Part shown: positions 31,028 to 46,243 of the stretch, piece by piece | Layout: each line of letters opens with the position of its first letter | Position numbering within the stretch: the stretch's first letter is position 1 | NCBI GenBank assembly: GCA_016182605.1 | Contig: JACPGE010000097.1 | Span: 1 to 64,000, forward strand | Direction: 5' to 3' | Source: Candidatus Hydrogenedentota bacterium | Lineage (GTDB): Bacteria > Hydrogenedentota > Hydrogenedentia > Hydrogenedentales > JAEUWI01 | Length of the DNA stretch: 64,000 bases | The notes under the pieces: model-generated | The model's input: only the letters and a program-made list of their open reading frames with translations | What the model was told of the DNA's origin: nothing | The model's database searches: none | Program-made: the position numbers and the translations under genes

Positions 31028-31570
31028 CTAGACGGCGCCTTTTGCCAGACACGTAATCATCGCGCGGCAGAAATCAGGCAAATCGCCAGGCCGGCGGCTG
31101 CTGACGAAATTGCGATCCACCACGACGGGCGCGTCTTCCCACAAGGCACCGGCGTTCTTCAGATCGTCTTTGATGCCGGGCGACCCGGTCACGCGCACCC
31201 CTTTGTAGACCCCGGCGGAGATGGCAAGCCATCCGCCATGGCAGATAGCGGCCACGAGTTTTCCCGATTCCGCGAAGTCATTGATCAATTTCAGCACATG
31301 GGGATCGCGGCGCAGTTTGTCCGGCATGAAGCCGCCGGGAAGCACCACGCCATGAAAGTCGGCTTCGATCATGAGGTCGATGCGCGCATCGGAAACGCAG
31401 GGGTAACCGTGCTTGCCGGCATACTCCACGTCCGCTTCCTGGCCTGCCACCACCACCACGGCGCCCGCCTCTTCCAGGCGCAGCTTGGGATACCACAGTT
31501 CGAGGTCTTCGTAGATGTCGCCCACGAAAATCAGGATACGCTTGTCGTGTAAGGGCATGTTTTCCAGCAT
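31028..31570 (-). CDS. DJ-1/PfpI family protein
   Basis: A 180-residue protein of the DJ-1/PfpI superfamily (class I glutamine amidotransferase-like fold). The nucleophile Cys is in the elbow AAICHGGW, with the acid in the family position of GDIYEDLELWYP. Members act as glyoxalases or deglycases, chaperones or peptidases. AGGAGGAGG upstream of ATG 31570 is the best ribosome-binding site in this part of the window. It lies immediately downstream of the phage-type cassette on the same strand, but its family and separate leader suggest it is an ordinary host gene. Confidence 0.9.
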   Translation of the reverse strand: MLENMPLHDKRILIFVGDIYEDLELWYPKLRLEEAGAVVVVAGQEADVEYAGKHGYPCVSDARIDLMIEADFHGVVLPGGFMPDKLRRDPHVLKLINDFAESGKLVAAICHGGWLAISAGVYKGVRVTGSPGIKDDLKNAGALWEDAPVVVDRNFVSSRRPGDLPDFCRAMITCLAKGAV

Positions 31571-31649: not shown

Positions 31650-32171
31650 TTACGCGAAGGGCCGCGTGTCGACGATATATCCGTTCACACTGTCGTCCAC
31701 GGTCTTGATGATGCTCATGCCCGGGCGGAGTAGTACCGTCGCCAGGGCAATGCACCCGCTGTCGGGCGCCGGCGCCGTAGGGCTTGCCGATTCCGTGCCG
31801 GGCTTGATGGCAATGTTCCAGTTGGGAAGACAGGCCTGCACCAAGTCGATGCGGTTGTGAAGGGAAGGCACGACAAACGTGCCCGTCTCTGTAATTGCGT
31901 TGAGGCGGTACGGCAGGTTGTTGATGAGGGCGTAGCCGGGTTGAACACGGACGGAGAGTCCGGGTGTTGGCGTGCTCTCCACCTTGAGGTCATGTTCCGC
32001 TGCGCCGCGCAGCACGCCACTGCGGCCGCCCCAGCTCTTGCCGAGCAAAAAGTAGACTATCTCCAGTGCCGTTTCGATGCGGTCGTCCCATTGGTTCAGT
32101 TTGGCCGAAGCGACCGGGCGCTCCTCGAAAGCCCAGGTCGTTTTGGTGTAGCCCAATCCTTGAATGGCCAT
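31650..32171 (-). CDS. Putative tail-tip or fibre protein (last gene of phage-type cassette)
   Basis: A 173-residue protein with alternating strands and the segment VRVQPGYALINNLPYRLN, which resembles repeat units of phage receptor-binding or tail-fibre proteins in which a GYALVNG-like turn recurs. The start at 32171 follows AAGGAAC; upstream in-frame codons lie in the 54-bp spacer after the baseplate gene. It is the last cassette gene before the DJ-1 gene. Assignment is by context and weak pattern only. Confidence 0.55.
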   Translation of the reverse strand: MAIQGLGYTKTTWAFEERPVASAKLNQWDDRIETALEIVYFLLGKSWGGRSGVLRGAAEHDLKVESTPTPGLSVRVQPGYALINNLPYRLNAITETGTFVVPSLHNRIDLVQACLPNWNIAIKPGTESASPTAPAPDSGCIALATVLLRPGMSIIKTVDDSVNGYIVDTRPFA

Positions 32172-32225
32172 AAGGTGTTCCTTGTTTTCGGTCTTCGGCC
32201 CGCGCACCATGCGCGGGCCTGGGGA

Positions 32226-33965
32226 TCAATCGAGGTGGAACCCGCTGTCCAGTCCCACCCCCGCATCGTCCAGCCGGAATTCGAAGAGACGCGACGCGTT
32301 CTCCTGGCTGCGAATGAGGTAACTGAGTGGATTGGCGACAGAACGCAGCAGACTTGTGAAACGGACTTCTGTTTCTACCTGTCTTCCGGTGAGCCTGTAA
32401 GTCACTTCGCATACGCGCGCGACCATGCGATCCGGGAAACGGCCGCCCCAGTGGGTCGCAAGACGGGGTGCGATCTCATGAAGGGGCGCACCGCGCAACT
32501 CGATCGCGTCGCCCACCCGCACGCCGGCGTGTCCGTGGAAAAAGCGAATGCCGCCCGTCATTTCGGGATAGGCCACATCCGCCAGCAATCCTGCTGCGAG
32601 CCGATCCGCATCGGCTTCTGTTGAGAGGGCGAAGTAGGGCAGGGAGCGCCCCCGGAACCCGTATGCCTCGATACTTCCGGACTGGACGTAGCTCTTCCGC
32701 ACGTTTCCCTGAAAGGGGTGGCCCTCAACCACGATATAGTTCGCCACGCCCTCCAGGCGCGGAGCAAGTTCCACAGCGTGTTCGCGCGGATCGTAAAAGA
32801 CCACGTGGTCAACGCGATCACTGGCACGAAACCGGACGCACGCACGGGTGTCCACATCAAACGTACACCCTTCTGCCAGATAGGCCAATCCTGCAAGCAT
32901 CTCGTAGATCCGGCCCTGGGCTTGAAAGGCATCCAAGGCCACAGCGGACGCATCCACGGAGTCCACCGCGGGCGCGGAGTAAGAGAAGAAATCTTTTAGC
33001 TCGAGTTCCGGCGCGAGATAGCGGCCATCATCATAGAGATACACGTCCGCGAGGCCTTGCTCGACCAGTGCGGCGTTGTAACACAGGCCGCCCCCGTATA
33101 CGAGCCCGAGGTAGCGCCCATAGGCATCCACGCGATCATCGAATATACCCGCAGCGTTTCGATGGGGATTCAGTTCGATGAAGTCAATGCCGTGATTGTC
33201 GATGAGGTCTTGGAGGTACGCTGTGGCCGCTTCCGCCTTCAGGCGGTATCCGCTTGCGCCGTACTCGGCGGCGTCCCATTCCGCCACATCAGGGTGCCGG
33301 GCTATGGCGTGGGAATTCAACGCACTTTCTTCCGCGTCAATGAGCATCATGCGCAAATCCGGCCAGTCCTCACCGTCCACCTTCAGACCGGCAATGGTGT
33401 CGCCATCCTTGGCGTAGGCATCGGTCAGATCGATGCGCGCGGCGCCCACCCACTGGCCTTCGTTTATGGCCGCCACCGCAAGTTCGTTCTCCGGATGTTG
33501 CCGCGCATCGAACTTGGCGTACTCCCTTGCGGCGCCCTCTGGAAAGGCCCCGTGGCTCACGGAATAATGCAGCGGGCCGGGCGTCCTCTGAATCAAATCT
33601 TTTGCCACGCCGATTGCGGGATGCTGCTTGTAGGCGTAGTTCACGGGGTGATTGTATCCGGTGGCGGGTCCTTCCGCCTCCACCTCAAGCACTTCCTGAA
33701 AACCAATATAGCGCTCCAGGATAAGCTTCTTGGTGTCTCCCCATTGGGATCGGACCGCAGTCACTGTTGCATGCACCACGAGCCGGCCATCGATCCACGC
33801 TTTCAGGGTGTATCCCGGTTCGATCCGGCGGAGGCTGGTGGGGAGGAGCCCGCGGATACGCTCGCCTGCATCGGGGGTGCCCTGGGTCACCTCCAGAAGG
33901 GGCGTATCTTCCACCTGCGCCACGCGCAATCCGTTGCGGTCCAGCAATTCGATATGGTAATTCAT
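32226..33965 (-). CDS. Phage baseplate hub/tail protein with embedded staphylococcal-nuclease (SNase) domain
   Basis: A 579-residue protein. Residues 1-170 and 330-579 look like a gp27/Tal-type baseplate hub (LLEVTQGTPDAGERI, beta-barrel-like segments). Residues about 178-325 match a thermonuclease: DGDT (187-190), R205, D210, E213 and R284 in AYGRYLGLVY correspond to the catalytic and Ca2+-binding residues D21, R35, D40, E43 and R87 of staphylococcal nuclease. The intact triad suggests an active nuclease displayed on a particle tip. It starts 3 bp after the Dit-like gene. Insertion of SNase in a hub protein is unusual. Confidence 0.75.
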   Translation of the reverse strand: MNYHIELLDRNGLRVAQVEDTPLLEVTQGTPDAGERIRGLLPTSLRRIEPGYTLKAWIDGRLVVHATVTAVRSQWGDTKKLILERYIGFQEVLEVEAEGPATGYNHPVNYAYKQHPAIGVAKDLIQRTPGPLHYSVSHGAFPEGAAREYAKFDARQHPENELAVAAINEGQWVGAARIDLTDAYAKDGDTIAGLKVDGEDWPDLRMMLIDAEESALNSHAIARHPDVAEWDAAEYGASGYRLKAEAATAYLQDLIDNHGIDFIELNPHRNAAGIFDDRVDAYGRYLGLVYGGGLCYNAALVEQGLADVYLYDDGRYLAPELELKDFFSYSAPAVDSVDASAVALDAFQAQGRIYEMLAGLAYLAEGCTFDVDTRACVRFRASDRVDHVVFYDPREHAVELAPRLEGVANYIVVEGHPFQGNVRKSYVQSGSIEAYGFRGRSLPYFALSTEADADRLAAGLLADVAYPEMTGGIRFFHGHAGVRVGDAIELRGAPLHEIAPRLATHWGGRFPDRMVARVCEVTYRLTGRQVETEVRFTSLLRSVANPLSYLIRSQENASRLFEFRLDDAGVGLDSGFHLD

Positions 33966-33968
33966 GGC

Positions 33969-34649
33969 TCACCACCATGTATCGCGCCAGTCAATGCTGG
34001 CCGTTGCAGTGTGGCTGCTCGTGGTGGCGTCCGAGTAATGCAGTGTACTCTCGCCGGGCGCCAGCACGGGAAACACGCCTCGTGTGTAAGGGAGCGCGTC
34101 TTCTCCATCAAGGGTTACCGATCCAGCGTGACCATCGAAGATCAACTCGCTTCCGGTTTCGACCACGCCGTCATATTGCAGGGTATTGGCGCCATCGCTG
34201 ACTGCGGGCTGCACCAGATCGCCCGTTGCCTGGATCGCGATTCGCACTGTGGCGGTGTGATTCCCGGCATTACTCAGCGCAACAGACTGTCCAGACGCGG
34301 TAATGGACCAGGATGTTTCGTGCAGTATGACGCCTTCTTCCAGCGGGGTCCTGGATTCCAGTTCAAGCGTGAACGCCCCCAAAGGTCCGTGCTCCTCCAG
34401 TTCCCGCTTGAAGGCCAAGCGCCGTACGTTCATCTGCCGGCCCGCGCGCACGCGGAGCAGTGTATATTGGGATTCCGAGGCCTCAGCCAGCATCGCGTCA
34501 AGTTCGGCCTGTACGGCCTCTGGCGTCGCGCCGCCCACGATTCCGCGTATCTGAATGTGGCGCGTTTCGCGGCCACCGGCCTCTTCCAGATGCTCCGAGA
34601 CGTGCACGGTCTCGTCTGGGAATGTGTATGCGCCCAGCGTAATGCTCAC
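33969..34649 (-). CDS. Distal tail protein (Dit)-like
   Basis: A 226-residue protein with two parts. An N-terminal beta-ring-like region contains GPLGAFTLELESRTPL. A C-terminal galectin-like region contains LSNAGNHTATVRIAIQAT, TGSELIFDGHAGSVTLDG and LAPGESTLHY. This arrangement matches siphophage distal tail proteins, which connect tail tube and baseplate hub. It is placed immediately before the hub gene, as Dit is before Tal in phages. What is odd is that it follows the head connector directly, with no tail-tube or tape-measure gene between. Confidence 0.65.
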   Translation of the reverse strand: MSITLGAYTFPDETVHVSEHLEEAGGRETRHIQIRGIVGGATPEAVQAELDAMLAEASESQYTLLRVRAGRQMNVRRLAFKRELEEHGPLGAFTLELESRTPLEEGVILHETSWSITASGQSVALSNAGNHTATVRIAIQATGDLVQPAVSDGANTLQYDGVVETGSELIFDGHAGSVTLDGEDALPYTRGVFPVLAPGESTLHYSDATTSSHTATASIDWRDTWW

Positions 34650-34661
34650 GATGACTCCTCC

Positions 34662-35078
34662 TCAGGTTGTGGACGCGCCAAGCACGGGCAGCGTATCCGT
34701 GACACCGCCTGTGCCGCGATCGCGCACCTCCGCCAGATAAGGGGCGAGACGTTCCCAGGCCTGAGATTCCAGCGCGCGCGACACGGACATCAACGCGTTC
34801 TCACCGCCAGACCGGTTTACCTCGTTACCTCCAATGCGAAGGGAGCGGAGTTGCAGAACCTGCGCGGCGCAAACGTGGGCCAGCAGCACAGAGCACGCGA
34901 GGTGGGTTTCTCCCGCGACAAGTGCCGCCGGTGGATTCCCGGTGTCGACGCTCGGCGCGAGCCGCGTCAGAAGTGTCTCGTGTGCGGCGTCCAGCGCCGC
35001 GCTCACCATGCTGTCTGCGGCGAATTGCACCGTAATGCCAAACGCGTCACGCAGGTTCTGTATCGTTGCGAATGCCAT
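34662..35078 (-). CDS. Putative head-tail connector/adaptor protein
   Basis: A 138-residue mostly helical protein (LRDAFGITVQFAAD, helical middle, LESQAWERLAPYLAEV). Its size, helix content and position just after the capsid gene match gp6/gp15-type connector proteins of HK97-like phages. The assignment relies mainly on gene order. It lies 57 bp after the capsid gene and 12 bp before the Dit-like gene, on the same strand. Confidence 0.5.
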   Translation of the reverse strand: MAFATIQNLRDAFGITVQFAADSMVSAALDAAHETLLTRLAPSVDTGNPPAALVAGETHLACSVLLAHVCAAQVLQLRSLRIGGNEVNRSGGENALMSVSRALESQAWERLAPYLAEVRDRGTGGVTDTLPVLGASTT

Positions 35079-35135: not shown

Positions 35136-36179
35136 TTAGCTCCAGGTGCTGTTGATGACGATCCGGGCCTTGTCGTAAACCACGGCGAAGTCCGTCACGA
35201 CCGTGAGGTAGGTGCGGTCCCACTGCTGGTGGATGAGCTTGTCGCTTTCCACGAGCAGTTCTTGCTCCGTGAGTTTCTGCGCGGCGTAGCCCGCGTCGAG
35301 CAGGGTCACCTTGCCGGCCGGCTGCGAAGCCAGCGGCACGAGTTTTACGCCGAGCGGCGTGGGCAGGTTGCCCGTCTTGGCGAAGTCGAAGAGCGCGGCC
35401 TCTTTGAACTCGCCCAGCTCCAGGATATCCTGGGCCGTCGCCGCATTCGCCAGCAGGTGCGTGGGCGTGAAGTAGTGCTCGGTGGCCAGCTTCATGAAGC
35501 CGGCCACGAGATCGCCATACGTCCACGTGCCGCTGGTCGCGGTGTTCATCACGACCGGGGCCGTGTTGCCGCTGGAACTGTCGCCGTTGGCGAGCACGCT
35601 CACCAGGCGATCGTCCAGATTGCGGCCCAAGCGCTCGCCGATGCGCTGCAGGTGAAGCCGGAGCATGTCTACCGACATGCGCCGGATCACCTCATACGAC
35701 GCGAGGACCCCGCGGCCGAGTTTGTCGAGCCGCACCACGCGCGATCCGTAGGTGATTTGCGATTCGGGGATCGCGCCGCCTTCCGCAACCTTGCGCAGTT
35801 CTTCCTCGTCCGCGTCCTCGGTTACGAACGGCAGTTCGAAGGCCGTGCTGTTGATGTGCTCGTCGCGCATGATCAGCTCGGGATACTTCGGCTTGCGCTG
35901 GATGCCCGTGAGCACCGCCTCGCGCACCATGTCCGGGAAGAGCCACTTCGCGTTCGGATCGGACTGAAAGAAGCGCTCCACCGTGATACGGTTGAGGTCC
36001 ACGCCGAATTCCTGCGCACAGTACTCGTTCACGTTGGTGCCCAGCGCGCGGAAATAATGGCTGTGGTTCAGGCCAAAGCCGTTCAATGTGTCGTAGAGGC
36101 CCTGGCCGCGCAGCCCGCGCAGCCGGTCCGGCTCCTGGCTCAGAAAGGCGAGCCGTTCCTTGATCGCTCCGTGTTCCAT
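35136..36179 (-). CDS. Major capsid protein (HK97 fold)
   Basis: A 347-residue protein with features of HK97-fold coat proteins: a helical N-terminal region, the stretch RVVRLDKLGRGVLASYEVIRR, a long backbone helix region LRLHLQRIGERLGRNLDDRL, and a terminal strand segment. It follows a small decoration-type gene and precedes a connector-like gene, the conserved structural order. The visible N-terminal 100 residues could act as a scaffold (delta) domain removed by the prohead protease encoded upstream. Its codon use is like the host's, so the cassette may be old in this genome. Confidence 0.75.
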   Translation of the reverse strand: MEHGAIKERLAFLSQEPDRLRGLRGQGLYDTLNGFGLNHSHYFRALGTNVNEYCAQEFGVDLNRITVERFFQSDPNAKWLFPDMVREAVLTGIQRKPKYPELIMRDEHINSTAFELPFVTEDADEEELRKVAEGGAIPESQITYGSRVVRLDKLGRGVLASYEVIRRMSVDMLRLHLQRIGERLGRNLDDRLVSVLANGDSSSGNTAPVVMNTATSGTWTYGDLVAGFMKLATEHYFTPTHLLANAATAQDILELGEFKEAALFDFAKTGNLPTPLGVKLVPLASQPAGKVTLLDAGYAAQKLTEQELLVESDKLIHQQWDRTYLTVVTDFAVVYDKARIVINSTWS

Positions 36180-36194: not shown

Positions 36195-36575
36195 TTAGAG
36201 TAGAACGTGGACGACGCTCTTCGACGCGTCCACCTTCAGGTTGATGCCCCGGCCCAATCCGCTCGCGGGGGCCTTCACTTTGCCGTCGGTGTTGGACGCC
36301 GTCACACCGGTCTTGCCGTCCACCACCGGCGCGGTGCCCGTATACGCGAAAATGCAGAGCCCGCGCACGCGCACAGGGATGGCCGCATTGTTGGCCGTTG
36401 CGTCGCCCAGCGCCTGGCCGATGACTGCGTCGTCATCCGCCGCGGCGTTGTCCACCGTGTACGGCCCCGTAAGTTTGAGTGCGTCGCCTTTCGCGATGGC
36501 CACCGTGCCCGAAGACACGGTCTTGCACGTGAGTATCAGTTCGGTGAGCGTGCCACCGATATCGCCATAGGCCAT
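36195..36575 (-). CDS. Capsid decoration/stabilisation protein (DUF2190-like)
   Basis: A 126-residue protein beginning MAYGDIGG and rich in small residues and beta-turns (VAIAKGDALKLTGPYTVDN, VRVRGLCIFAYTG). This is the pattern of DUF2190-type capsid cement or decoration proteins, which begin with a strand, a GDAL/GDVV turn and a hydrophobic V-rich body. It sits just upstream of the capsid gene, as usual. Start ATG 36575 follows an AGGAGC-like site; a longer frame to 36779 runs into non-coding spacer containing a hairpin. Confidence 0.6.
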   Translation of the reverse strand: MAYGDIGGTLTELILTCKTVSSGTVAIAKGDALKLTGPYTVDNAAADDDAVIGQALGDATANNAAIPVRVRGLCIFAYTGTAPVVDGKTGVTASNTDGKVKAPASGLGRGINLKVDASKSVVHVLL

Positions 36576-36815: not shown

Positions 36816-37502
36816 TTACGCGCCCGTGAGGATTGACCAGGCGCGCCCCCGTTGTTCCGTCTCGTCCTCCAGGGGATCGGGCAGGGAAACGGGTTGGGGC
36901 GGATACTTCGCGTCGAAGCGCACCTCGAATCCGTGCAGGTGCCGATCGATTTCGCGCAGCGGCATCTTCGCCAGCAGCGCCCGCCATGACTGCTCCTCGA
37001 AGTGGGAAGCATCGAGTTCCTTGCCCAGTGCACAGAGCCGCGCGACACTGCGCTCCCGTGCGGTGAGGCCATCCTCCACAAGGGCAGGCAACTCATCCAA
37101 AGCGCGTCCGCGCGCATGCACGGATTCAACGAGTTGCCCCATACGCTCGGCCGAGAGTCCGGCCAGGCGCGTCACGCGGCAGCGCCAGGTGCGCTCTCCA
37201 TCGTAGAGTTCCAGTACACCCTCGTCACCGTCCCAACCGCGCCAAGCGTACACCCCCGACGCTTCGCGGCCCTGCGCCTGATCGAGCCACTCCCGCGGAT
37301 GGGGTGATTTCGAGATTCCCCATTGCGTGGACTCCAGGGCTTCAGAGGCAAGCCGCCATCCTGCGAGAAAGCCTGCCTGCTCCAGCCTCAGATCCAGGTG
37401 GGGCCCGCTTTCATCTGTATGCCGGTGCAGCGCGAAGCGGCCGTGTTGTTCCAGCGGCGGCTCCTGCGCATTGTCATCCAGCCAGTCGAATTTCCAGTAC
37501 AT
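36816..37502 (-). CDS. LigD 3'-phosphoesterase (PE)-domain-like protein
   Basis: A 228-residue protein whose N-terminal half resembles the phosphoesterase domain of bacterial DNA ligase D. FALHRHTDESGPHLDLRLE aligns with the H-(x5)-H-x-D-x-R catalytic cluster (His42, His48, Asp50, Arg52 in the Pseudomonas LigD numbering), and SPHPREW aligns with the His84-Pro region, with Trp where Tyr88 is expected. PE domains resect 3'-ribonucleotides and remove 3'-phosphates at DNA ends. The C-terminal half is helical and unknown. It lies between a membrane protein and the decoration gene within a capsid cassette, an unexpected place. Confidence 0.6.
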   Translation of the reverse strand: MYWKFDWLDDNAQEPPLEQHGRFALHRHTDESGPHLDLRLEQAGFLAGWRLASEALESTQWGISKSPHPREWLDQAQGREASGVYAWRGWDGDEGVLELYDGERTWRCRVTRLAGLSAERMGQLVESVHARGRALDELPALVEDGLTARERSVARLCALGKELDASHFEEQSWRALLAKMPLREIDRHLHGFEVRFDAKYPPQPVSLPDPLEDETEQRGRAWSILTGA

Positions 37503-37513
37503 GCATCGCCTCC

Positions 37514-37702
37514 TTATATCAGCGATTTGCCGAGGGTTGCGATCACCCCGGCCAGGTTGACCACGAGCAGCATGACGCCCCGGGTGAGGGCGAACTCGAG
37601 GCGTTCTATCCGCTCCTTCAGTTCGCGGACATCGTCGCGCACGCCCCGGATCTCCACGGCGTGCACTCGTTCATAGGGACATCGGCATTCCTTCGTTTCC
37701 AT
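37514..37702 (-). CDS. Small XhlA/holin-like membrane protein
   Basis: A 62-residue protein with an N-terminal charged amphipathic coiled coil (VRDDVRELKERIERLEFAL) and a C-terminal transmembrane helix (MLLVVNLAGVIATLG). The arrangement matches XhlA-like hemolysin/holin accessory proteins, which help form membrane lesions during phage release. Two Cys near residues 6 and 8 are unusual. No lysin gene accompanies it, so it may anchor or assemble the particle rather than lyse the cell. It lies 11 bp upstream of the PE-like gene. Confidence 0.6.
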   Translation of the reverse strand: METKECRCPYERVHAVEIRGVRDDVRELKERIERLEFALTRGVMLLVVNLAGVIATLGKSLI

Positions 37703-37714
37703 GGTGATCGCTCC

Positions 37715-38410
37715 TTATTCGCGGGTGAAAAATGGTGATTCGTGCAGGGTGATGGGTTCATGAAACGCCCGGCGGGCCTGCTCCAGCGCAGTCAGTGGCG
37801 GCTCGCTGCGCGCGCCTGCGAGAAAGCGCGTGCCCTGGGAGCCGGAGGCGACCACGGAGCCTTCGAGCACTTCCTGCACCCCGCGCATGACGAAGTGACA
37901 GGCCGCGGCGCCGTAGCTGCGGCCCGGCACATGGGCGCAGGTTCGCAGGTCCGCACCACAGATCGAGCATTCCGGCCGTTGAAAGGAGAAGCCGATGGAA
38001 GTCTCCCGGTAGACCCCGCCTTCGATGTTTTGAATGAAGTCGCGGTTCGCTTCCGTCTGCAACACGTAAACGTCGGGCCGGACGGATACATGCTCTCCCT
38101 CCTGGTGGAGCCGCGATTGAAAGAAGGTGCCCCGCGGCAGGGAGCCGCGCACATCGTGGCGTTCCATCAGGGGCCGGCCGGGCGTAAGTGCGTTGATTAC
38201 CTCCAGCTCTTCCATCGGGAAGCGGCTGTAATGCCGGTCAATTTGGTTGTTGCACAGATCCATCGTGAAAATCGCGTATTCCTCCGGTGCGAGCGGGCGC
38301 AGTGCGAAGCGGTTTACCGCGTCTGCGGTGCTTGCCTCGTTTCCGGCGGCTATCTCCCGCGTGGCGCAGATTTTCCCGGCGCAGTTGAAGACAAAGGGCT
38401 CCATATCCAT
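37715..38410 (-). CDS. Putative prohead protease/scaffold protein
   Basis: A 231-residue protein located between the portal and capsid genes, the usual place for a capsid maturation protease. YAIFTMDLCNNQIDRHYSRFP opens the conserved substrate-cleft region (split near residue 50), RPLMERHD carries a candidate catalytic His, and YRETSIGFSF a candidate Ser, as in HK97 U35/U9-type proteases. A four-Cys region (CSICGADLRTC...C) near residue 150 looks like a small zinc-binding insertion. Start at 38410. The catalytic triad is inferred, not certain. Confidence 0.65.
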   Translation of the reverse strand: MDMEPFVFNCAGKICATREIAAGNEASTADAVNRFALRPLAPEEYAIFTMDLCNNQIDRHYSRFPMEELEVINALTPGRPLMERHDVRGSLPRGTFFQSRLHQEGEHVSVRPDVYVLQTEANRDFIQNIEGGVYRETSIGFSFQRPECSICGADLRTCAHVPGRSYGAAACHFVMRGVQEVLEGSVVASGSQGTRFLAGARSEPPLTALEQARRAFHEPITLHESPFFTRE

Positions 38411-38431: not shown

Positions 38432-39700
38432 TCAGTGGCAGGCCAGAGACTGGCACGCGGGTTTCATATCGAGGCGTTGCAGGACTTCGGATGCATCCAG
38501 AATGCCGGCGCCGTGCAGCGCAATCAGACTCGATACCTCCTGATGCTCCGCCTGAGCCGCCTTCAACACATCTACGGTCCGGTTGCGCCGCATGCGCACG
38601 TCCACTTCGGCCTCACCCCACATGAGCGCAACTTCGAAACGGTAAAGCCGTTCCAGGAGTTGCTCCATACCGCGGTTGATGCCGTCGACCTGGCGGTTGA
38701 TGATCTCAAACTGGGCGGTGCCATAGGTTTCGGTGGTGCCATAGTTTCTGCCGAGAAGAATGGGCATGAGGTGGGCGCCGGTGATGATCTGCTCCTCCAC
38801 GGCCTTGTGATTGTCATAAAAACCTTGCGCGTGCTGATCGCCGCGAAGCAGATCCACCTTCACATTGTCGAAGGTAACGAGATTCTGGTCCGAAGCCAGG
38901 CCGGAGAGCTTCTCGCGAAGCGACTCCAGGTTGCCGGACATGCGTTGCTGGAAAGCCTCGCTGCTTTCGCCGCGCTGGCGCTCTTCGCCCACATACTGCA
39001 CATGCAGCTTATTCCAGCCTGCATTGCGCGTTGCTTTGGCCATGTCTTCGAGGAGCCGCTGCTGTATCTTGATGGCGTGGGGGAGGGTGCGCAGCATGCT
39101 CCGGCCATAGGGGTTCGTCCCATCGCGATCCATGGCAAGGTAAACAAAGCGCTCTTTCGGGAGCCGAATCGTTTGGCCGCCGCGCACCTGGTAGGCCTGG
39201 ACACCGTCTTTCTCACGGCGGAACCGCACAGTCCATACATCCACCGGCACCACATCGAAGATGGACTCCCGGCTGTTGGAGAGCACAATCTCGCACGCGG
39301 CGGCGCCATAGGTGAAAAGGGACGTGTAGAGGATGTCGAGGAGTCCATCGACACCCCGGTCGCCGCTGTTCATGCGCTGATTCAGACTGTGGATAAGCCG
39401 CCGCGCCCGCAGTGTGGCCACTTCGGAACTGCTTTCGGGGATATGAACGTCGAAGCCGGTCTGGCAGAGCCGCTTCCACGTCCACACCGCATCCGAGACG
39501 TCGGGAATGGCGTCGCGCAGGAAACGGTAGACCGGAAGCATGTCGAACGGGGTATCATTGGGAAGGGGAATGAAGGGGGGGAGGGGCACACCTGCCAGAG
39601 AGGCATCCTCCGGAAGCGATAGTGCCGCCGGAGGATGGATGCGGACCGCTGAACGGCGCCGGAGGGCATGACGAGAGAGCCAGTTGCGAAGGATTGGCAT
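38432..39700 (-). CDS. Phage portal protein
   Basis: A 422-residue protein resembling DUF935 or HK97-type portal proteins, the dodecameric ring through which DNA passes. WTWKRLCQTGFDV, LFTYGAAACEIVL, RFVYLAMDRDGTNPYG and the long helical GMEQLLERLYRFEVALMWGE segments follow the usual clip, stem and wing order. ATG 39700 follows GTGGAG and is preferred over a longer frame to 39754. It is the first gene of the minus-strand cassette. No terminase gene precedes it: the next gene is the divergent response regulator. Confidence 0.75.
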   Translation of the reverse strand: MPILRNWLSRHALRRRSAVRIHPPAALSLPEDASLAGVPLPPFIPLPNDTPFDMLPVYRFLRDAIPDVSDAVWTWKRLCQTGFDVHIPESSSEVATLRARRLIHSLNQRMNSGDRGVDGLLDILYTSLFTYGAAACEIVLSNSRESIFDVVPVDVWTVRFRREKDGVQAYQVRGGQTIRLPKERFVYLAMDRDGTNPYGRSMLRTLPHAIKIQQRLLEDMAKATRNAGWNKLHVQYVGEERQRGESSEAFQQRMSGNLESLREKLSGLASDQNLVTFDNVKVDLLRGDQHAQGFYDNHKAVEEQIITGAHLMPILLGRNYGTTETYGTAQFEIINRQVDGINRGMEQLLERLYRFEVALMWGEAEVDVRMRRNRTVDVLKAAQAEHQEVSSLIALHGAGILDASEVLQRLDMKPACQSLACH

Positions 39701-39812
39701 CGAAAGTTTCTCCACAGTCGGTGACGGGCCCGGCCCATTGCGTGCCCGTTTCACTCTCTATGGCGGGACATTGCACTCCCGGGAATGCGATACAAACACA
39801 AATTGTTTCTGC

Positions 39813-39870: not shown

Positions 39871-40257
39871 GTGACTGCAAAGGACCTCTCCTACGTCTTG
39901 GTCGTGGACGACGTGGCGTTTTCGCGCCGGGTACTGGGCCAGATACTCCTGCGCTTCGGATTTGCGGTCACCGAAGCGGAGTCCGGCCTCGACGCGATCA
40001 AGGCGATTCGGCATGCGAAGCCGGGACTGATCTTCCTGGATTACATGATGCCGCAGATGTCGGGCGTGCAGGTCTGCGAGTGGATTCGCACACAAGAGCA
40101 GTTTAAGGACATTCCGGTAATCATTTGCACCGCCCATCAAGACCGGAAGCACGTGATGGCCGCAATCAAGGCTGGCGCCAATGACTTCATGTGCAAGCCG
40201 GTCGATCCCGCCTCGGTTGCCACGCGCATCAAAAAGGTGCTTGGTTTCGAAGTCTGA
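39871..40257 (+). CDS. Single-domain response regulator (CheY-like)
   Basis: A 128-residue receiver domain with no output domain. The acidic pocket VVDDV (Asp13, Asp14), phospho-acceptor Asp57 in FLDYMMP, the conserved Thr in CTAHQD and the Lys in CKPVD are all present. The GTG at 39871 is selected because AAAGGA lies 7 nt upstream and the receiver begins immediately after; an in-frame frame extending back to 39622 overlaps the portal gene. It is divergent from the capsid cassette, and no kinase is adjacent. It may relay phosphate or bind a motor or enzyme. Confidence 0.92.
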   Translation: MTAKDLSYVLVVDDVAFSRRVLGQILLRFGFAVTEAESGLDAIKAIRHAKPGLIFLDYMMPQMSGVQVCEWIRTQEQFKDIPVIICTAHQDRKHVMAAIKAGANDFMCKPVDPASVATRIKKVLGFEV

Positions 40258-42496: not shown

Positions 42497-45400
42497 TTAA
42501 CGTCCCAAGGCGCGGTTGATGACCAGTTGCACGTCGGCGCTATTCGTCGCGCCGTCCCGGTTTACATCGGTGCCGGTTGCCTTTGCCGCACGCATGATCG
42601 CCTCGACCACCATCTGAATGTCCAATGAATCCACCTTGCCATCGTTGTTTACATCCGTGATCTCCAGCGAAAGCGACGCAGGATCGACGAAGGTAAAGGC
42701 ATCTTCCAGTGTGACCGGTCCGGCGGCCACCTGCACGGTCACATCCACGGTGCCTTCATTGTGAACCGGTGTCACCACCTCCAGCACACTGTTGCCCAGA
42801 TTGCGGATACTCGCGGCACGGACGCCGCCAAACTCCACACGGATCGGAAAATCTATCCGATCTCCCGTGATGCGCACCGTGTCACCACCCTGTACCAAGC
42901 CCACACTCGGCGTCACGGTGAGTATTTGCGCGCCGCCGATCACGGTCACCGTCGGAGATACCGACACCGATCCGGCCGTGTTGAGCACGGTGACAGGCAG
43001 GACCCGGAAGTGCCACTGATCGCCCGGCGCCGTGGCATACGAAGGCACCTCGAAGATATTAATCAGCCCGCTCACCACCTGACCATTCTTGAACCAATAG
43101 AGAATGGAGGGACCCTCTTCGAAGAATCCGCTGGCATCCCCCAGGCGCGGATGTTCATAGTCGTAGGCGGCAAAGAGCGCATCATTGTCGTCTACCGTGC
43201 GATCCTGGGCCGGGTCTTCCAGTGGCGACCCCGTGGCCAGCGTAAGATTTGTGGCCTCAGGCATGCCCTCGAACTCTCCGACAAATACCTGCACGTCCTG
43301 ATACGCTCGCGCGTCGCCCAAGCGCGCCACCACCCGCACCGTAAACGCTCCCTCGTCTGCAATGCTCGTGCGCCATAGAAAACTACCCGTGCCATCGCGA
43401 TTGTCCGCAAAGGGCACCGCGCCAGGGCCGTCCCAAGTCGCGGTCAGTACCGGCGTGCCCGGCAGCCCGGCAGGCACGTTGGCTTCGATGTCGAATTGCA
43501 GTTCCCCGCCACCGATCACGCCGGCGGGAGTTACCGCGTTGAGGCTGAGCTGGGTGGGGGAAACGGGCAGTTCGCTTAAGTCAAACGTGGTTTCCACACT
43601 GAGGAGATCCTCGGCCACGTCCGCGGGATCGACCGGCACGCCCTGGCCGTCCGATATCCCGGCAATCACATTGTCGACCCCGATGCTCTCGTAGGTAATG
43701 CGGATGTGCCCGCTGTAGAACAACTCCACTTGCACGGTGTTTGTTGGTCCCGCCGCAAAGGGCCCCGATAGCGATGCCTCGGCCACGCGTTCAAAGGTTA
43801 TCGCCAAGCGATCGTCCAGAGGCCGCACCCAGAATATACCGGACGCGCTCGGCAGCAGATTGGCGAACAAGAAGGAGATACGCGGCACGCGGAAATGTGC
43901 CTCGAGTGTGGGCAAGGTCAGTGCCAGCGGTACCGGCGCAAAGGTAATGAAGCCGTTCGCATTCAATGCCAACTGGTTATAGCGCGCGCCGAAGAAGGGG
44001 AATCGGAAGGAACCGAGCCCCAGAAAGACCGTTTGGTTTTCACGGAGCGGTACTGCATAGGAGCCGTCCGCGCCAGAACCCCGTTGCACTGGAAGTGCTG
44101 TAATTCCCGTGCGTATCGTGGCCTCATAGTCCGCCAGACCGCCCCCGCCGGCGCCGCCAGCGGGCGTGCCGACCGGTGTGTACAGGATTTGCTTAAACGA
44201 CAAATCGAAGTTTGAGGAAGTGCCGCCCAGAAAGCCAAACGCCTGCGTGTGAACTATGGGGGCCTCGCCGCCGCCCGTCGCACGGGCAAACAAAATCTGC
44301 GGGAAATTTCCTTCGATGTCGGCAATCAGCGTGTAGAAATACTCCACGCCCTCCTGCACTGTGCGATCGACGAACTCTTGCGAGGTGCCCTGGAATAACA
44401 GGGTTCCTTCATTGGGCGACTGGGCAAAGGTTTGCGTCTGGCGCAGCAGTTGTACGTTCTCGAACTGATCCGAAGGGGGATTCACCCACGTGAGCGCCAC
44501 CACGGGATTGCCATTAATATCGCGAGTCGGCGTGGCGCGGAATGAACGCAAACCCAGCAAAGTGGAAGTGGGCGGCTCAATCTCCACCGCGCGGCCCGCA
44601 GCGGCGATATTCAGCCGATCCTCAAACGTCAGGCCGAGTGCGGAAGCGCCCGCGCCCAGCGCATCATACAGATCATTGTAATCCGAGGCCGGGGTCAGCA
44701 TGAGCTGCGCCTGATAGAAGAGATCCGCCACCACGCTGATGCCCATGCCTTCCACGGTCTGGCCATTGAAGATGTCTCCATCGGTCAACAAATAGCAGAG
44801 TTTGTTGCCAATGCCGCTGTTGATGTGGACGCCGCCATTGTCGAGGAAGGTGTTCGTGTTGAACAGCAATGGGCTTCCCAGCCGGTCGGGATCCCCGAAC
44901 ACGGTAGGATCGCTCATGCTCCGGAACGCATTCGTGTCGGTAGGCTGCGGCTCTTCGTCATCTTCTTCGTCTTCTGTGTCGTCCCCTTCAGGATCCCCTT
45001 CCCCTGCAATATCTTCGCCAATAAGCCACCGCACATTCGCACTGTCATTTCCGGTGCCGTTGGTCAAGTCCACGAACTCTCCCCAGATATCGGAGAAGGA
45101 CTCGTTCATGGCTCCGGAAAATCCGAAATAGATTAAATCGGATTCAAACTGGGTCACGCCATGGGTGTACTCATGGGCGATCACATCGTCAACGGCAAGC
45201 CCGGCGCCAATGCTCATGGCGAGGTCGATACTATCCCAGAAGGCATTGAAAAAAGGCAGCCGGACTGTGGCCACAATCGGCAGGCCCGCGTCATCGACGC
45301 CATCGCGGCCATGTTCCGTCTGATAGAAATCGTACGTGTCTCCGAAGAAGTCGTAAGCGCTGTCCACGTCCGCAATGCCGGTGGGGCCGCCGCCTTCCAC

Positions 45401-46243
45401 ACGGGCCGGCTCGATTGGCGCCGTGTTGTCGCCGTCCGCATCGAAGATAGTGCGATCGAGCGCGTCGTGAAGCAAGCTGAACCGCAATGCGATCTTACCC
45501 GAGTGTGCATCCACCAAAACTTCTTGCTGAACGGGACGCCCCGTCCCCGTCGCAATACGCATCCGCCACACCAGTTGCGCCGCGCCCGGCAGCCCCACGA
45601 TCTTCGGATCGAAGACCATTAGCGTCGCCGCACCGCGCACACCGAGCTGAGACACCGCCACATCGCTATAGAGCCCGGCGATGGCTTCCCGTGCGAGCGT
45701 ACTTGCGCGCACGGCCGTCAAGGCGGGATCAAGGGAAACGACTCCACCGTCCAACAGACTGGAATCGCGAAGAATGTCGCTCATCACCTGGCTCACTTGG
45801 CCCGATGCGCCCAGCGCCACCACCGCCTGGCTTGCGTAGACCGGCAGCCCACCGTAAGTTTGGGCCAATCGCACATAGGTCACGCCGTTGCGTTCCCGGG
45901 TGGACTGCGGCGAGAATGCCGTCGAGGCGCTTGTCACCCCAAAGGCGCTCTGATAGGTGGTGAAGAATGAAAGCCCCTGCGCTTCCAGGCTGCCGGATTT
46001 GGCGGTTGCACCCGGCACGTGAAAGAACGCCCCCTCGGGCGCACCCACGTAACGCACATGCCCCTCACTGGTTTGACGAACCACCGGAAGCTCCGTCGCG
46101 CCTGCGGCTTCCAGCGAACCGAACAAGGCCGAAAGCGGCTCGGTATTCGCCTGTTGCGCTCCCGCCAGCGGTGACACCGCCCCGAATACTACCAAGGCCA
46201 ATCCGGTCCATCCCTGGACCCCGACCGCAAGCAAAGACCGCAT
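42497..46243 (-). CDS. Secreted M4 (thermolysin-like) metallopeptidase with TIG-like domain and C-terminal dockerin
   Basis: A 1248-residue secreted protease. Signal peptide 1-29, then an FTP/PepSY propeptide to about residue 255. The M4 catalytic domain has HEYTH (zinc site, about residue 357) and GAMNESFSDIWGE (third zinc ligand Glu). Beta-sandwich regions and an IPT/TIG-like segment (VGLVQGGDTVRITGD) follow, and the C-terminus is a dockerin-like pair, DVNNDGKVDSLDIQMV and DVNRDGATNSADVQLV, separated by about 30 residues. The dockerin suggests attachment to a cohesin-bearing surface protein; no cohesin is visible here. AAGGAGA precedes ATG 46243. Confidence 0.92.
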   Translation of the reverse strand: MRSLLAVGVQGWTGLALVVFGAVSPLAGAQQANTEPLSALFGSLEAAGATELPVVRQTSEGHVRYVGAPEGAFFHVPGATAKSGSLEAQGLSFFTTYQSAFGVTSASTAFSPQSTRERNGVTYVRLAQTYGGLPVYASQAVVALGASGQVSQVMSDILRDSSLLDGGVVSLDPALTAVRASTLAREAIAGLYSDVAVSQLGVRGAATLMVFDPKIVGLPGAAQLVWRMRIATGTGRPVQQEVLVDAHSGKIALRFSLLHDALDRTIFDADGDNTAPIEPARVEGGGPTGIADVDSAYDFFGDTYDFYQTEHGRDGVDDAGLPIVATVRLPFFNAFWDSIDLAMSIGAGLAVDDVIAHEYTHGVTQFESDLIYFGFSGAMNESFSDIWGEFVDLTNGTGNDSANVRWLIGEDIAGEGDPEGDDTEDEEDDEEPQPTDTNAFRSMSDPTVFGDPDRLGSPLLFNTNTFLDNGGVHINSGIGNKLCYLLTDGDIFNGQTVEGMGISVVADLFYQAQLMLTPASDYNDLYDALGAGASALGLTFEDRLNIAAAGRAVEIEPPTSTLLGLRSFRATPTRDINGNPVVALTWVNPPSDQFENVQLLRQTQTFAQSPNEGTLLFQGTSQEFVDRTVQEGVEYFYTLIADIEGNFPQILFARATGGGEAPIVHTQAFGFLGGTSSNFDLSFKQILYTPVGTPAGGAGGGGLADYEATIRTGITALPVQRGSGADGSYAVPLRENQTVFLGLGSFRFPFFGARYNQLALNANGFITFAPVPLALTLPTLEAHFRVPRISFLFANLLPSASGIFWVRPLDDRLAITFERVAEASLSGPFAAGPTNTVQVELFYSGHIRITYESIGVDNVIAGISDGQGVPVDPADVAEDLLSVETTFDLSELPVSPTQLSLNAVTPAGVIGGGELQFDIEANVPAGLPGTPVLTATWDGPGAVPFADNRDGTGSFLWRTSIADEGAFTVRVVARLGDARAYQDVQVFVGEFEGMPEATNLTLATGSPLEDPAQDRTVDDNDALFAAYDYEHPRLGDASGFFEEGPSILYWFKNGQVVSGLINIFEVPSYATAPGDQWHFRVLPVTVLNTAGSVSVSPTVTVIGGAQILTVTPSVGLVQGGDTVRITGDRIDFPIRVEFGGVRAASIRNLGNSVLEVVTPVHNEGTVDVTVQVAAGPVTLEDAFTFVDPASLSLEITDVNNDGKVDSLDIQMVVEAIMRAAKATGTDVNRDGATNSADVQLVINRALGR

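Follow-up and report, generated by a model that had tools for sequence, protein, structure and literature searches.

A staphylococcal-nuclease domain in a hub-like tail-tip protein of an apparently domesticated, possibly GTA-like particle in Hydrogenedentota

What is a nuclease domain doing in a protein at the tip of a phage-type tail? The question is raised by an open reading frame at positions 32226–33965 on the minus strand of the window (the whole stretch of 64,000 nucleotides that was analysed, from an uncultured Candidatus Hydrogenedentota bacterium). It encodes a hub-like tail-tip protein of 579 amino acids with an inserted staphylococcal-nuclease (SNase) domain, and it follows the distal tail protein (Dit) gene in those loci of relatives that hold both. 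The ORF and its translation match exactly those of an earlier sequence-only reading, which had assumed an ordinary infecting phage. Instead, the surrounding block proved to be a single-copy, vertically inherited gene set of the host lineage. With a probability of roughly one half, we regard the protein as the tip of a domesticated, vertically inherited, phage-derived particle of Hydrogenedentota, most likely a GTA-like viriform with a very short tail.

The SNase domain occupies residues 178–325 (32991–33434, minus strand) and carries DGDT at residues 187–190 together with R205, D210, E213 and R284; D189, R205, D210, E213 and R284 are the equivalents of D21, R35, D40, E43 and R87 of SNase. The first part of the domain, with DGDT and R205 to E213, is recognisable by eye. 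The Pfam SNase family PF00565 matched residues 247–312 with 21.8 bits against a curated cut-off of 21 (E = 2.7e-4), and the same family was matched by 24 of 28 homologues (best E = 6.5e-7). In addition, the PHROG 'endonuclease' family phrog_452 matched the ORF at 2.3e-6 and was also matched by 23 of the 28 homologues. When a profile of the 28 homologues was used, staphylococcal nuclease/thermonuclease chains in the PDB were matched (best E = 2.6e-7), and the catalytic residues were aligned in register over DGDT, R(x4)D(xx)E and the GR motif, including stretches such as RLLLVDTPE in the hub against RMMLIDAEE in thermonuclease and DKYGR against DAYGR. The active-site pattern reported in the sequence-only reading, which had also proposed this comparison with thermonuclease, is thus borne out. 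Compared with the staphylococcal nuclease family, the catalytic residues and their spacing are alike, whereas the E213 and R284 regions lie further apart in the hub, the domain is inserted in a 579-aa tail-tip protein and its activity is predicted from sequence. By these matches, a genuine SNase domain is present at about residues 178–325, and a chance match is excluded.

In an alignment of 30 homologues (about 50% identity), R205, E213, R284 and T190 were found in 30 of 30 sequences and G188 was invariant, while D187, D189 and D210 were kept in 29, 28 and 29 of the 30, respectively. This conservation of catalytic residues rules out the SNase as a merely structural domain. The segment from 178 to 325 holds 38 of the 77 invariant columns of the hub, and its mean pairwise identity is 68%, as against 47%, 61%, 43% and 55% in the other hub segments; it diverges less than either flank in 100% of genome pairs. 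For the closest pairs, dN/dS (YN00) was 0.11 and 0.09 for the gene as a whole and 0.10 and 0.055 for the SNase part. As judged from these substitution patterns, purifying selection on the catalytically complete SNase is strong. Two hubs have lost a metal-ligand residue of the SNase, by D189N and D210E in locus L018 (genome G026) and by D189R in L029 (G029), and the nucleases of these two may be weakened or dead. Structure prediction, which the sequence-only reading had also suggested, was run as AlphaFold2 with two-sequence alignments and gave a mean pLDDT of 33.5 for the whole hub and 35.7 for the SNase domain, values too low for an OB-fold or a hub fold to be read from the models.

The protein had also been called a baseplate hub. 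Its position in a tail-tip gene that comes immediately after Dit and precedes a fibre-base-like gene was upheld, but the word hub comes from gene order, with no match to known hubs. The regions flanking the SNase had no PDB match to a hub of known structure, and their sole family match among the PHROGs was phrog_21793, of unknown function (best E = 1.1e-4). There was also no sequence match between the hub and the tail-tip proteins gp18 and gp19 of Streptomyces phage Austintatious. We infer that the protein is hub-like by its position in the gene order, not by its fold, and assign it to no hub family. The neighbouring Dit (226 aa; 33969–34649, minus strand) is more readily identified, with matches to SPP1_Dit (6.9e-7), phrog_5577 (1.8e-12) and the Dit family phrog_33 (6.7e-10), and the sequence of its C-terminal half is matched in a Streptomyces siphophage that encodes a stopper, a tube, chaperones and a tape measure between its capsid and Dit genes; none of these is found in the island. 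Compared with the Dit-hub tip of siphophage Austintatious (gp17 and the following genes), a Dit homologue is followed by tip genes in both, whereas tube, chaperone and tape-measure genes are absent between head and Dit in the island.

Dit and the hub belong to a block of ten genes that lie on one strand, the minus strand of the window. The order begins with a portal protein of 440 aa (38432–39754, true start perhaps downstream; phrog_3753 portal 4.7e-47, Portal_Mu 6.1e-7), followed by a probable prohead protease of 231 aa (37715–38410), which lies between portal and capsid, is 57–70% identical across loci and matches phrog_16951 of unknown function at 1.5e-33. Next come a small protein of 62 aa with a coiled coil and a hydrophobic tail (37514–37702; 40–57% identical in most loci with that part of the block), a homologue of the LigD 3'-phosphoesterase domain (228 aa; 36816–37502) and a capsid decoration-like protein of 126 aa (36195–36575; phrog_4588 virion structural 6.2e-6), which is colinear in the loci reaching it. 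The HK97-type major capsid protein (MCP; 347 aa; 35136–36179) matches the major head protein family phrog_3922 at 2.7e-50 and Phage_capsid_4 at 2.9e-13. A putative head-tail adaptor (138 aa; 34662–35078), without a convincing family match, is named from its place between capsid and Dit and is 30–40% identical across loci. After Dit and the hub-SNase, the block ends with a fibre-base or receptor-binding-like protein of 172–186 aa (31650–32210), which has weak virion structural matches (E = 0.001–0.004) and directly follows the hub in loci with both. No gene for an integrase, for replication, for a terminase, for a tail tube or for a tape measure was found within the block.

The block is flanked by host genes, namely a DJ-1/PfpI gene on one side and a divergent receiver-domain gene and a PD40 gene on the other, and its GC content (0.62) and GC3 are similar to those of the adjoining host genes. 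Flanking genes are common only within a family. The receiver-domain (CheY-like) gene, read from the sequence at about 39871–40257 on the plus strand, diverges from the portal gene, and in genome G006 the block adjoins a similar gene in divergent orientation (L041, 3855–4250); it is possible that this gene is a regulator of the block. The DJ-1/PfpI gene adjoins the island both in the window (31028–31570) and in L041, which is of the window's family. In family f6 (L114, 4710–5273), a DJ-1/PfpI gene 74% identical to it is again found beside the island, and the other flanks are not shared.

As we picture it, the particle would have a very short tail made of portal, adaptor and Dit with the hub at its end. 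It would package host DNA, DNA-filled particles would be released from some cells, and the tip nuclease would act outside the producing cell. SNase-family enzymes are typically Ca2+-dependent, and the nuclease would therefore remain inactive in the cytoplasm of the producer and be switched on outside. Extracellular matrix DNA or DNA at the recipient's envelope would be cut there, by which the way to the recipient could be opened or the delivered DNA trimmed. The earlier suggestion that a tip nuclease degrades target DNA or extracellular DNA is a plausible one. More tentatively, and with the odds somewhat against it, we propose a phylum-wide, ancient GTA that has a minimal tail (portal-adaptor-Dit-hub) and a Ca2+-gated tip nuclease for clearing extracellular DNA or processing delivered DNA.

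The phosphoesterase homologue bears on a different role for the nuclease. A profile of 17 sequences matched PDB 3p43 at 9.9e-8 and 3p4h at 9.5e-6, LigD_N (PF13298) was matched by 15 of the 17 homologues at scores below the Pfam cut-off (best E = 0.0013), and H28, H35, D37, R39 and H68 are invariant. The homologue is fixed in the head module, even without the hub, and is an unexpected enzyme among capsid genes. SNase-type enzymes leave 3'-phosphate ends, and such ends could be healed by the phosphoesterase homologue of the block if the tip SNase served as a DNA-entry nuclease, nicking or trimming the particle's own cargo as it leaves via the hub for uptake by the recipient, in a manner that would recall the cell-surface entry nucleases of natural competence. 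The SNase does sit in the probable hub, the route by which the DNA would leave. However, genomes that lack hub and SNase carry the phosphoesterase homologue just as well, so that the two are not functionally tied and the phosphoesterase is weakened as a candidate partner of the SNase, and we consider this role unlikely.

The distribution of the block was examined in 68 genomes of the order, the window's own included, which are draft assemblies. The organism belongs to Hydrogenedentota, a hub 50% identical to that of the window occurs in a Candidatus Hydrogenedentota MAG, and the relatives form one order. Homologues of the hub were found in 37 of the 68 genomes, always as a single copy, which is intact in nearly every case; the exceptions are an in-frame stop in L020 and split or partial genes in a few draft assemblies. 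Among the genomes searched, no hub was found outside the order. The capsid gene was found in 52 and the large terminase (TerL) in 57 of the 68, and at least one of hub, MCP and TerL in 65 (about 96%); when only genomes at least 90% complete were counted (n = 42), the hub was present in 25, MCP in 37 and TerL in 40. In the 20 relatives' loci that were examined first, the gene order was the same over the fetched sequence, although in a few of them one or two genes were not detected. Particularly, the hub is absent from 19 genomes with a capsid gene, and the tip is therefore not essential to the island everywhere. In family f7, part of f11 and f6, adaptor, Dit and hub are lacking and the head module is followed directly by an M15-like peptidase with the motif H..D..HxH, by a holin-like gene or by both, and in three genomes of f11 adaptor and Dit are present and the hub is absent. 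PhageMin_Tail was absent from the window's genome and from 8 of the 11 relatives searched, and in the other three the matches were on contigs other than that of the block; a divergent tail elsewhere in the genome is possible.

These absences could also be read as marks of a domesticated capsid that serves some end other than transfer, for instance disposing of DNA or acting as a signal particle, in which case the tip nuclease would do no more than clear extracellular DNA. Such a use would suit a block without tube and tape measure, genomes in which PhageMin_Tail is lacking and lineages that retain only head, holin-like and peptidase genes. However, portal, protease and terminase are kept together with the capsid, which points to DNA packaging and release, and the Dit-hub tip points to delivery; we find a capsid without transfer rather improbable, a shade more so than the DNA-entry role.

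The terminase of the window's genome was found by phrog_2 on another contig (C103), and it was missed there by the Pfam models Terminase_6N and TerL_ATPase. In genome G001, the terminase found by phrog_2 lies on the same strand as the block, just downstream of it. TerL is 53–70% identical in most genomes of the order and unlinked to the block in nearly all, and it has phage homologues, one of them annotated as terminase large subunit. Comparison with rpoB was used to follow inheritance. Splits in common with the rpoB tree numbered 8 of 19 for the head genes, 12 of 24 for MCP, 7 of 14 for TerL and 6 of 15 for the hub, where label-shuffled null sets reached at most 3, 3, 2 and 3. The Mantel correlations with rpoB were 0.88, 0.79, 0.52 and 0.57 in the same order, with null maxima of 0.50, 0.41, 0.44 and 0.39. 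Families f3, f7, f10 and f11, and f1 minus the window's genome, group wherever at least two members were sampled, and the window's genome either joins its family with weak support or falls outside it, according to the tree. These comparisons support the view that the block has been passed down with the host from the ancestor of the order onwards, the tip module presumably having been lost in some lines; in detail, the trees are partly congruent, and some transfer is possible.

Relatives in phages are distant. The closest phage capsids are about 30–34% identical and the closest phage terminase 26%, and the hub, the SNase domain and the fibre-base protein had no match by tblastn in 50,697 phage genomes. 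In IMG/VR, a pattern search, which finds mainly close relatives, gave no relative of hub, MCP or TerL. An ordinary or decaying prophage, in which a nuclease in the hub would be incidental, is thereby made very unlikely: the recognisable genes are of tailed-phage origin, and their order is that of siphophage Austintatious minus tube and tape measure, but the block is carried intact and as a single copy by dozens of genera, has host-congruent trees and is under purifying selection, carries neither integrase nor replication genes, has its terminase at another locus and has no close phage relative. The branch-length ratio to rpoB is 3.4 for tip proteins and 1.4–2.2 for head proteins. Least credible of all is a killing particle whose tip injects a nuclease toxin into competitors like a nuclease bacteriocin, which would fit a nuclease on an injection tip and the faster evolution of tip proteins, but the block has no conserved candidate immunity gene, the nuclease evolves more slowly than the rest of the hub, opposite to the expectation for an arms race, and the head and terminase genes are kept.

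The reading as a GTA-like particle agrees with several features of the gene set, namely portal, MCP and terminase of phage origin, congruence with rpoB above the null and a block without integrase and replication genes. Recognised GTAs are few, and a description of the alphaproteobacterial and spirochaete families reports vertical inheritance and, for RcGTA, genes scattered over several loci (PMC9662315). Compared with these GTAs (RcGTA, Rhodogtaviriformidae; PMC9662315), phage-derived head, portal, protease and tip genes are found in both, as are vertical inheritance, a multi-locus gene set and a block without genes for self-mobility. In contrast, the island lies in another phylum, has a block in which neither tube nor tape measure is detectable, is known from its genes, with transfer as a predicted function, and has a tip SNase as well as a 3'-phosphoesterase homologue in the head module. 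A functional analogy may be drawn with the RcGTA tailspike TspA, for which degradation of biofilm and an increase in gene transfer are reported (PMC13420450). In both cases, a tip enzyme is proposed to open the biofilm matrix, whereas TspA degrades biofilm polysaccharide and detaches, and the nuclease domain of the island is inside a hub-like protein.

In the literature consulted, we found nothing that joins Hydrogenedentota and GTAs and nothing on SNase domains in tail tips. If the GTA-like reading is true, Hydrogenedentota would be a further lineage in which gene exchange by GTAs could be both ancient and general. A nuclease active at the tip would represent a tip enzyme of a new kind, and it raises the question whether cutting of DNA helps or limits delivery. 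In addition, a tail made of Dit and hub only would bear on the minimal tail of a DNA-delivering particle.

Some further genes were noted in the window and the relatives' loci. An M15-like peptidase directly follows the block in L036, L044, L045, L046, L048, L104, L105, L107, L108, L112 and L113, and in some of the relatives that bear it a holin-like gene of ~120 aa adjoins the peptidase; the two could possibly form a lysis cassette. In the window's genome, no lysis gene was found; the M15 search had been run without a positive control among its genomes. Outside the Hydrogenedentota order, family f40 (L118, 4871–12398, reversed coordinates, G096:C17; also G100 and G101) has a head-only island with a protease-like gene, an MCP 45% identical to that of the window, a terminase and a holin-like gene with three TM segments, in which no Dit or hub was seen. 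The MCP of this island is 92–96% identical across three genera, and the island is possibly a second domesticated particle. Finally, an M4 thermolysin-like peptidase of 1248 aa with TIG and dockerin domains is encoded at 42497–46243 on the minus strand of the window.
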